This document shows, in pieces, positions 13,473 to 15,919 of a DNA stretch of 36,562 nt. Position numbers and translations under genes: made by a program. This stretch comes from a virus, in the IMG/VR virus record IMGVR_UViG_3300042197_001658, positions 1-36,562 of that record; one strand, 5' to 3'. Position 1 is the first letter of the stretch. Each line of letters opens with the position of its first letter. The notes under the pieces are model-generated. The model did not search any database. It was not told the origin of the DNA and saw only the letters and a list, made by a program, of their open reading frames with translations.

Positions 13473-13955
13473 ATGAGAATAAAAATGAAACCCTTTGATA
13501 TTGATATAGTAAAACAATATATTCAGCAGAGTAGCCAAGAGAGTAAAATCTACTTGGGTGCAGACAGTGAGCGTACTAGACTAGATAAGGTTTGGTGGGC
13601 TGACTATACTGTAGCTATTGTGGTACATATAGACGGCAAACACGGCTGTAAAATATTTGGCTATCATGTTCGTGAACGTGACTATGATCAAAAGCGTAAT
13701 AGACCTAGTATTAGATTGATGACTGAAGTTTATAAGGTCAGTGAAATCTTCCTAGAGCTTAAGGATGTAATTGAAGACAGGCACGTTGAAATACACCTAG
13801 ACCTTAATCCACAGGAGTGCTATGCTAGTAATCAAGTTGTACAACAAGCTATAGGGTATATTCGTGGTACTTGTGATGTAGAAGCCTTAATCAAACCAGA
13901 TGCTTTTGCTGCAAGCTATGCAGCTGACAGACTAAAATTTATATTAAACCGATGA
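13473..13955 (+). CDS. RNase H-like protein of the DUF458/YkuK family
   Basis: 160 aa (or 156 from the internal ATG 13485). Family features: KIYLGADSERTR near residues 25-36 (acidic beta1 strand), TVAIVVHIDGKHGCKIF, RPSIRLMTEVYKVSEIFLELKD, VEIHLDLNPQECYASNQVVQQAIGYI and KPDAFAASYAADR. This is the same pattern as bacterial YkuK, a predicted RNase H-fold nuclease. The acidic residues that would bind metal are present. Coupled to the next gene by an ATGA overlap. Role in phage unknown; nucleic acid processing is likely. Confidence 0.78.
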   Translation: MRIKMKPFDIDIVKQYIQQSSQESKIYLGADSERTRLDKVWWADYTVAIVVHIDGKHGCKIFGYHVRERDYDQKRNRPSIRLMTEVYKVSEIFLELKDVIEDRHVEIHLDLNPQECYASNQVVQQAIGYIRGTCDVEALIKPDAFAASYAADRLKFILNR

Positions 13956-14170: not shown

Positions 14171-14273
14171 TTTTTATAACAGCCAACCATTTACCGTATT
14201 AGAAGCCGTTAGCCTAATATTCGTACTAGGCTATACAGGTTATTACATTTTAGCTGAATTAGCTCAGTGGTAG
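14133..14273 (+). CDS. possible small membrane protein running into tRNA-Thr (46 aa)
   Basis: A frame opened by TTG 14133 inside the previous gene reads ...VLEAVSLIFVLGYTGYYILA, one clear membrane span, and stops within tRNA-Thr. The composition is like a real short membrane protein, but the start is weak and the overlap with the tRNA (21 nt) is a concern. Confidence 0.38.
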   Translation: MKNSANIKRSVVNFYNSQPFTVLEAVSLIFVLGYTGYYILAELAQW

Positions 14274-14327
14274 AGCAACCGCCTTGTAAGCGGTAGGTCA
14301 TCAGTTCGAATCCGATATTCAGCACCA
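14253..14327 (+). tRNA. tRNA-Thr (anticodon UGU)
   Basis: 75 nt. Acceptor GCTGAAT/ATTCAGC, D stem GCTC/GAGC, anticodon stem ACCGC/GCGGT around CTTGTAA (UGU), T loop TTCGAAT (one mismatch in the T stem), encoded CCA. Lies just upstream of the tmRNA acceptor piece. Confidence 0.93.
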
Positions 14328-14335
14328 AGTTATAG

Positions 14336-14395
14336 TTGTATGAAGCTAATAGAAACGTACTGCGGACAGGGGTTCGACTCCCCTCTGGTCCACCA
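14336..14395 (+). ncRNA. ssrA: tmRNA acceptor piece (3' half of a permuted ssrA)
   Basis: Contains the 3' half of a tRNA-like domain: T stem AGGGG (14368-14372), loop TTCGACT, CCCCT (14380-14384), acceptor strand CTGGTCC (14385-14391), discriminator A and CCA. Upstream GTACTGCGGAC matches the usual tmRNA sequence before the T arm. The acceptor strand pairs with GGGCCAG at 14539-14545 (one G-U), not with anything upstream, so the gene is circularly permuted. The exact 5' end of the mature piece is uncertain. Confidence 0.88.
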
Positions 14396-14406
14396 AAAGG
14401 TAACTT

Positions 14407-14565
14407 ATGAAATCAGTAGAAGAATTCATACAAGATCAGTTAAAAAGGATTGATATTGATAGCCAAAGACAGGCTATAATAGATCAAGCTTTTGAAATTA
14501 AGGAGCAAACTCAAAAAATAGCTAAGTTATTTTTTGATGGGCCAGTCACGGTTTCGACGGGGTAA
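14407..14565 (+). CDS. small protein encoded between the two tmRNA pieces (52 aa)
   Basis: ATG 14407 has an AAAAGG site 6 nt upstream that overlaps the CCA end of the tmRNA acceptor piece. MKSVEEFIQDQLKRIDIDSQ..., helical and charged, similar in style to the 9223 and 9630 products; the last 8 codons and the stop lie in the 5' end of the tmRNA coding piece. It would be translated only from unprocessed precursor or another transcript. Intervening segments of permuted tmRNAs are normally short and non-coding. Confidence 0.5.
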   Translation: MKSVEEFIQDQLKRIDIDSQRQAIIDQAFEIKEQTQKIAKLFFDGPVTVSTG

Positions 14566-14725
14566 AGAGTATTGTGGCAGACAACTCGGCAATGCAGAAG
14601 CCGTAGGGTTAGCACTAGCTGGCCATAGAAGCAAATAAGATAAATGCCAACGATGAGGTATTTGCCTTAGCTGCATAAGCTAGGCTGGGGTTTAGGCGGT
14701 TGACCTTATTAGCCAACAACCGCCA
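14539..14725 (+). ncRNA. ssrA: tmRNA coding piece (5' half of a permuted ssrA) with tag reading frame
   Basis: 5' acceptor strand GGGCCAG, then CACGGTTTCGACGGGG, the conserved tmRNA D-loop region, AGUAU (14568-14572) pairing with GUACU of the acceptor piece (P2), and PK1 with CGGC/GCCG. The tag frame starts at GCA 14631 after CATAGAA and encodes ANKINANDEVFALAA, stop 14676-14678; the last ten residues, ANDEVFALAA, look like standard proteolysis tags ending LAA. A GGCGGTTG/CAACCGCC hairpin (14695-14724) closes the piece. With SmpB it would rescue stalled ribosomes. Confidence 0.9.
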
Positions 14726-14750
14726 CCAACAACACAAACAGAGGATAAAA

Positions 14751-15139: not shown

Positions 15140-15215
15140 GCGGCAATAGCTCAATTGGTAGAGCACCTGCCTTCCAAGCAGGATGTTGTCGGTTCGAGAC
15201 CGATTTGCCGCTCCA
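15140..15215 (+). tRNA. tRNA-Gly (anticodon UCC)
   Basis: 76 nt. Acceptor GCGGCAA/TTGCCGC, anticodon stem CCTGC/GCAGG around CTTCCAA (UCC), T loop TTCGAGA, encoded CCA. With the GCC tRNA it covers all four Gly codons by wobble. Confidence 0.94.
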
Positions 15216-15235
15216 CGCAACATAAGGATAGACGA

Positions 15236-15919
15236 ATGAGTACATCTACTTTAAGTTTTGGGTATAAAACTGCCGATGAAATTAATAATACTATGGCAGG
15301 TGTCTATAAGCACATGGCATTGGCAGTAATAGTAAGTATGTTAGTATCATTTAGCGTTAGTACAGTGCCCGCATTAATGACTTTTCTTTTTACTGGTTGG
15401 ATTAAATGGGTAGTAATGTTTTTGCCTTTAGTTGCAGTATTAGGATTATCAATAGCACTAAATTCAAATCCACCTAAAGAATTAGCACAGCTTATGTTAT
15501 TAGGTTTTGCTGCTATCATGGGACTTAGTTTTGCAGTAATATTTGCCATATATAAATTTAGTAGCATCTTTATTGCCTTTATGAGTGCAGGTGTACTATT
15601 TGGAACAATGAGTTTTTATGGTTACTTTACTAAAAGAAGTCTTGATAGCCTTGGTAAATTTATGTTTGTGGGGCTTATTGCTATTATTATTGCTTCCATT
15701 GCTAATATATTCATTGGCAGTGGGCCTCTTGGTATGGTTGTTAGCACTTTTGCTATTATCATTTTTACGGCTCTAACTGCCTACGATACTCAAAAAATTA
15801 GAGAAATGATTATGGATGGGCAAGACAATGTTGAGGTAATTGGTGCCTTAACTCTTTATATGGATTTCATAAATATATTTCTAAGTATGTTGCAATTATT
15901 CGGAGATAAAAAGGAGTAA
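15236..15919 (+). CDS. BI-1/YccA family membrane protein (Bax inhibitor-like)
   Basis: 227 aa, ATG 15236 behind ATAAGGATAGACGA; an in-frame start at 15155 would lie inside tRNA-Gly. Seven hydrophobic segments: about residues 25-50, 53-74, 84-106, 108-128, 138-158, 160-182 and 200-222. Conserved C-terminal family motif [11 protein letters not shown], plus [21 protein letters not shown]-1/YccA proteins sit in the inner membrane, act as Ca/pH-sensitive channels, and in bacteria (YccA) inhibit FtsH protease. A phage copy could protect phage proteins from FtsH (inference). It is followed 1 nt later by iscA. Confidence 0.92.

Follow-up and report, generated by a model that had tools for sequence, protein, structure and literature searches.

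The virus record IMGVR_UViG_3300042197_001658 of IMG/VR (36,562 bases; this whole stretch is called the window below) carries a permuted, two-piece gene for a transfer-messenger RNA (tmRNA), in which the acceptor half lies upstream of the coding half, and a small open reading frame (ORF) is nested in the intervening sequence (IVS, or spacer) between the two halves. The source is a freshwater phage, and the window represents 36.6 kb of its genome, which is larger. Its replication genes comprise a split NAD-dependent ligase, a D5-like regulator, a DnaB-like helicase, a primase and a DNA polymerase whose closest counterparts are those of T5-like phages (48-49% identity); the locus sits on a T5-like phage contig. 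Permuted tmRNAs as such were reportedly described by Keiler in 2000 and by Sharkady and Williams in 2004. The features of the locus are collected in Table 1.

First, we asked whether the tmRNA is genuine. An earlier note, made from the letters of this DNA, had placed the T-arm/CCA half 5′ of the D-loop/tag half and had named covariance models and ARAGORN as the way to check this; RF04321, RF01850 and ARAGORN agree on the permuted order. The RF04321 (tmRNA_permuted) model matches positions 14334-14678 with 112.7 bits, its gathering score being 47 (E-value 2e-21; 4.8e-25 in a search of the window's own record), the RF01850 (beta_tmRNA) model matches 14271-14731 with 85.6 bits, barely above its gathering threshold of 84, and ARAGORN independently calls a permuted tmRNA* with the tag ANDEVFALAA. 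The conserved motif, the acceptor strands and the two halves lie where the note had put them. Its half boundaries were right as to location and wrong as to the ends, since the acceptor half begins at about 14334 and not at 14368, and the coding half extends to about 14731.

As the note had also claimed, the acceptor strands CTGGTCC and GGGCCAG pair (7/7) only in the permuted order. They include the G3-U70 wobble of alanine identity, and the CCA is encoded. Among 211 viral permuted tmRNAs the acceptor stem is fully paired in 203, with 23 distinct sequences, and G3-U70 is found in 211/211; in this count the extraction pattern, by fixing a GG start and a TCC end, predetermines pairs 1-2 as well as the U of pair 3. 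At pairs 4-6, C-G, G-C, A-U and U-A replace one another by compensatory changes, and the pairing across the permutation is therefore under selection.

The tag proposed earlier is correct in its LAA ending and incorrect in its ANKIN- prefix: ARAGORN takes the GCC after AUAAAU as the first tag codon, and the ANKIN- codons are just open frame 5′ of the resume codon. The longer tag ANKINANDEVFALAA was rejected for this reason. ANDEVFALAA is a canonical (A)ANDE..ALAA tag, the tags of relatives include ANDEVFALAA, ANDETFALAA and ANDEVYALAA, and nothing points to another protease route, so that the idea of a tag steering host proteases differently was not borne out. As a separate observation, the permuted tmRNAs of five records (L119, L204, L287, L384 and L386) have unusually long predicted tags of 24-31 residues (e.g. 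ANADTFDFSAMSFTGNTVRGAANESRFVLAA), some with ends other than LAA; the start calls made by ARAGORN for these may be partly wrong.

The contig being an uncultured IMG/VR fragment, one could suspect that the halves are decayed remnants or host DNA contaminating a viral assembly. We consider this extremely improbable. The tmRNA is intact at all positions tested, and no second tmRNA, such as the continuous one that the note had named as evidence of decay, is found in this genome fragment. Moreover, 34 of the 50 viral records fetched (44 via the ligase, 6 via the tmRNA pattern) score over the RF04321 cut-off, the tmRNA of the relatives lies on the same strand 5′ of the phage ligase with phage tRNAs at its flanks, and the phage replication genes are on the same contig. 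Synteny and intact structure together led us to reject both decay and contamination. The phage thus brings a ribosome-rescue RNA of its own whose precursor needs host enzymes, as the note had proposed. No SmpB was found in the window or in 22 related records (23 phage records), and host SmpB must therefore serve.

Table 1. Features at the permuted tmRNA locus of the window
Feature	Position	Strand	Basis or remark
tRNA-Thr(UGU)	14253..14327	+	ARAGORN; ends 6 nt before the acceptor half starts
tmRNA acceptor half: strand pairing with the coding half, T-arm, CTGGTCC (14385-14391), ACCA (14392-14395)	14334..14395	+	RF04321 alignment
IVS, 143 nt, predicted to be removed in maturation	14396..14538	+	lies between the CCA and GGGCCAG
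Shine-Dalgarno-like AAAGG, directly after CCA and 6 nt 5′ of the ATG	14396..14400	+	sequence; Shine-Dalgarno statistics
IVS terminal helix, 5′ strand AAAGGTAACTTA (covers the Shine-Dalgarno and the A of the start codon)	14396..14407	+	fold
Nested small ORF, 52 aa, MKSVEEFIQDQLKRIDIDSQRQAIIDQAFEIKEQTQKIAKLFFD up to the boundary, then GPVTVSTG	14407..14565	+	open frame and layout statistics
IVS terminal helix, 3′ strand TAAGTTATTTTT	14523..14534	+	fold
UGAU, the last four bases ahead of the predicted RNase P site; ACCA pairs with it save for one C-A mismatch	14535..14538	+	fold; TGAT in 142/180 viral IVSs
tmRNA coding half: GGGCCAG (14539-14545), GGTTTCGAC (14550-14558), tag, 3′ hairpin 14695-14724	14539..14731	+	3′ end approximate
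Conserved motif TTTCGACGGGG (UUUCGAC)	14552-14562	+	sequence
Tag reading frame ANDEVFALAA with stop TAA	14646..14678	+	ARAGORN; same or similar tags in relatives

A feature absent from the earlier note is the probable small protein gene in the spacer between the tmRNA halves. In the window, 44 codons of this ORF lie within the IVS, the last of them (GAT) ending exactly at the boundary with the coding half, and the stop codon follows at 14563-14565. The Shine-Dalgarno (SD) motif stands at +0 and the ATG at +11 after the CCA, which fits the placement found in the coding class of spacers described below (SD in the first nucleotides behind the CCA, ATG near +10 to +14), and the frame fills the spacer. 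When the window spacer was shuffled 20,000 times, this layout arose with P 0.0037, and the layout together with an SD with P 0.0005. The ORF product is predicted from its single sequence to be a single helix (residues 4-42, pLDDT confidence score 84). Folding of positions 14385-14545 gave -47.4 kcal/mol (z-score -6.9), the acceptor stem, the ACCA/UGAU pairing and the AAAGGTAACTTA/TAAGTTATTTTT helix forming one rod that covers the SD and the start of the ORF.

To place this spacer among others, we gathered relatives via the ligase and via T-arm/CCA/GGTTTCGAC patterns and extracted, by acceptor pairing, at least 238 distinct viral permuted tmRNA records, mostly from IMG/VR. After removal of near-duplicates, 180 distinct viral spacers remained; the sample is pattern-based and not random. 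The statement that phage tmRNAs are rare is outdated in view of this number, and two-piece tmRNAs had already been counted in 53 phages in 2022 (PMC9004378). Six isolate phages of INPHARED also have a permuted tmRNA (L389, XacN1; L390, BUCT628; L391, QDWS595; L392, X1; L393, DLP6; L394, PA_L9), mostly unannotated in their records. A search of plasmids with the tmRNA gave no match.

We defined the coding layout as an ATG at +5 to +16 with a frame that stays open until at most 14 nt from the spacer end or runs past it, and derived expectations from dinucleotide shuffles keeping the last six bases. The layout is present in 72/180 viral spacers where about 7 are expected, and the layout with an SD in 54 (about 1 expected); in 39, where about 2 are expected, exactly one base separates the stop codon from the boundary. 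For spacers of 130-165 nt, the class to which that of the window belongs, the layout is seen in 24 of 34, against 0.45 expected. An SD core lies within the first 10 nt of 50/72 ORF-bearing IVSs compared with 3/108 of the others, and a terminal helix of at least 7 consecutive pairs occurs in 64/72 ORF-bearing spacers, in 97/108 of the others and in 13/180 after shuffling. The helix is therefore a general trait of these spacers, and the SD marks out the coding kind.

The encoded microproteins fall into about 46 families, 27 of which are singletons, and 14 have a likely membrane helix by hydropathy. Codon-level conservation is consistent with translation: the ratio of nonsynonymous to synonymous substitution rates (dN/dS) is 0.10-0.36 in 12 of the 17 families tested, and in every family with enough differences the ratio of nonsynonymous to synonymous polymorphism (pN/pS) has its minimum in the ORF frame (0.33, 0.78 and 1.49 in the three frames for family A; 0.19, 2.46 and 1.12 for family E). 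Conservation in the families lacking a stop codon in the spacer (E, F, I and N, and in the third frame J) equals that in families having one. Two microproteins have counterparts outside tmRNA spacers, that of L213 matching the free-standing phage protein phrog_13558 (E-value 1e-12) and that of L244 matching the C-terminal 54 residues of phrog_4098 (E-value 4e-11, Serratia phage 92A1); the family A microprotein alone found no match in INPHARED. The largest family (18 records, among them L256, L273, L284, L287, L342, L326, L366 and L264) consists of a single membrane helix of 23-24 aa, e.g. MNDDLTNLGIGVVVVLVVFALVLL, and here the UGA always lies one base before the predicted RNase P site.

The layout can also be searched directly. 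The pattern CCACCANAAGGN{3,9}ATGN{110,140}GGTTTCGAC retrieved 26 viral stretches, 21 of which had already been fetched through the T-arm pattern, and the five new ones are all permuted tmRNAs according to ARAGORN. In 257 Gb from 84,980 bacterial and archaeal species the same pattern gave 13 matches, all in ordinary sequence with no tmRNA call, as chance would produce. This suggests that the coding spacer is a phage feature, the bacterial negative resting on that one layout pattern.

Exchange of the spacer is seen among close relatives of the window. The tmRNA of L010 and L014 is 92% identical to that of the window in the acceptor half and 96% in the coding half, and their IVS is a 74-nt hairpin, 26% identical and devoid of an ORF; thus the spacer was replaced within one phage clade and the RNA was kept. 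More generally, identity of the window IVS to those of relatives is only about 26-31%, far below that of the tmRNA halves. Because unrelated families occupy the same slot and near-identical tmRNAs carry different spacers, we infer that the spacer may act as an exchangeable cargo slot for phage microproteins.

Several points weigh against the coding reading. No homologue of the window ORF was found in IMG/VR or INPHARED, and it has no Pfam or PHROGs match. It lacks a stop before the processing site, and its coding status, judged by layout and by analogy with other phages, is likely. Among the 17 families, three reach dN/dS values of 0.48-0.74, based on few differences, and two others show saturated dS. 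Finally, the spacers of the six isolate phages (XacN1, X1, QDWS595, DLP6, PA_L9 and BUCT628) are non-coding and contain no such ORF.

According to a rival explanation, only the tmRNA matters: the window spacer would be a structured linker without coding function that keeps the halves connected up to processing, and its frame would have arisen by chance or be left over from a former gene. In its favour, non-coding hairpins make up most spacers of the clade to which the window belongs, the window helix is very stable, and the ORF is a singleton that runs on into the tmRNA body. However, a frame with this layout and an SD is rare in shuffles of the same spacer, the spacer exceeds the 74-nt hairpins of the nearest relatives by about 70 nt, and its SD and ATG are placed as in the coding class, unlike those of the hairpin class (AAAGG versus AAAGCA). 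Moreover, in the families whose frame is likewise unstopped (E, F, I and N), dN/dS is 0.11-0.28. Altogether, we regard a mere linker as unlikely.

We favour, with good confidence, the explanation that combines an intact permuted tmRNA, a microprotein gene in its spacer and an exchangeable cargo slot. According to our computed fold, the acceptor stem, ACCA/UGAU and the spacer helix of the transcript form one long rod with the spacer as its loop. In known two-piece tmRNAs, RNase P and 3′ processing at the CCA generate the mature pieces (PMC3985003); by analogy, RNase P would cut before the GGG, a 3′-processing nuclease would free the CCA, and the two-piece tmRNA would work with host SmpB and alanyl-tRNA synthetase. 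In about two-fifths of the distinct phage spacers collected, that of the window probably included, the spacer holds, as judged by the layout statistics and by the codon-level conservation in other phages, a small protein gene with its SD in the 5′ strand of the helix and a frame that fills the spacer. One transcript would then yield both a ribosome-rescue RNA and a microprotein, the latter being translated from the precursor or after excision of the spacer.

The end of the window frame invites a further proposal. Since the predicted cut falls directly behind the GAT codon, excision would turn the spacer into a messenger RNA (mRNA) without a stop codon. Expression could then be self-limiting: once RNase P has cut at 14538/14539, ribosomes would stall on the non-stop spacer mRNA, and the tmRNA from the same transcript would tag the product. 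We put this forward as a tentative suggestion. It would also imply, just as doubtfully, that the microprotein accumulates only if the precursor stays unprocessed or trans-translation is saturated, much as for ArfA of E. coli. The frame crosses the boundary as GAT/GGG in 17 of the 72 ORF-bearing spacers, including that of the window, in which the commonest form of ending, a stop at -1, is missing; 39 of the 72 have just one base between their UGA and the boundary. In addition, purifying selection acts on the stopless families E, F, I, N and J right to the boundary, past which the extension differs among members of family E. On the other hand, the unprocessed precursor could equally be translated, with normal termination in the coding half, and the majority of coding spacers have a proper stop. 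The fixed UGAU, for its part, is explained by its pairing with ACCA and by RNase P cleavage, because it is also frequent (76/108) in spacers without ORFs. It is possible, if rather improbable, that the spacer has evolved as a bifunctional element whose precursor is either translated into a host-directed microprotein or processed into tmRNA, and whose expression reports the state of processing and ribosome rescue in infected cells; the tmRNA would tag and limit the microprotein, the cut being at or next to its last codon.

The combination of tmRNA and spacer gene can be compared with several described systems. The order of the halves, the acceptor pairing with G3-U70, the T-arm, the UUUCGAC motif, the LAA tag ending and the removable IVS are those of permuted tmRNAs (RF04321/RF01850; PMC11915505, with 11,946 unique bacterial ones); what differs here is that the gene is phage-borne and that its IVS contains a putative protein-coding frame. 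The phage two-piece tmRNA itself is already known (PMC9004378): methylophage Melnitz and pelagiphages are likewise aquatic tailed phages with a permuted tmRNA gene. The Melnitz tmRNA, however, is of the alphaproteobacterial type with a glutamine riboswitch at the 3′ domain and no spacer gene reported (PMC9004378), whereas that of the window matches the betaproteobacterial model. Intron-form tmRNAs with a homing endonuclease gene also carry a protein gene in a removed precursor segment (PMC11915505), but here the segment is the spacer of a permuted gene, no intron is involved, and the proteins are of 20-60 aa and belong to many unrelated families. In GCA-2688965 sp., the IVS of a permuted tmRNA holds a second gene, for tRNA-Ala (PMC11915505); that case is a single instance of an RNA gene, while here protein genes with a fixed layout are found in many phages. 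Finally, arfA of E. coli, a ribosome-rescue backup repressed by tmRNA, yields a small protein from a non-stop mRNA limited by tmRNA (PMC10107115). This offers a possible mechanistic analogy for stopless spacers such as that of the window, and for these only; no sequence similarity is claimed.

We found no mention, in the open-access literature, of protein-coding genes within tmRNA spacers, a paper on Sinorhizobium meliloti small proteins covering the tag frame only, and the use of the spacer as a slot for unrelated small proteins in dozens of phages seems new to description. Spacers of tmRNAs are regarded as waste and are passed over by gene finders. If our explanation is true, phage microproteins of several dozen families, many consisting of a single membrane helix, have escaped annotation and can be found with one pattern; phages would have a reason to retain the permuted form of the gene, and ribosome rescue would be directly linked to phage gene expression in a way accessible to simple reporters.

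As regards the surroundings of the locus, a tRNA-Thr gene lies just 5′ of the tmRNA in relatives as well (L097, L098, L101 and L112). This suggests that tRNA-Thr(UGU) and the tmRNA acceptor half share a precursor transcript in the window and in several relatives, and the window tRNA-Thr is probably on the transcript of the tmRNA. A scan for promoters and terminators gave nothing above chance level. Just 5′ of the tRNA-Thr/tmRNA locus, positions 13473-13955 (+) encode a Ribonuclease H-like protein (PF04308, 63.7 bits; phrog_11311). Downstream, at 15155-15919 (+), a 254-aa protein strongly matches the Bax1-I/BI-1 family (PF01027, 172 bits), a membrane protein unexpected for a phage; its start may be further in, because the ORF overlaps a tRNA-Gly.
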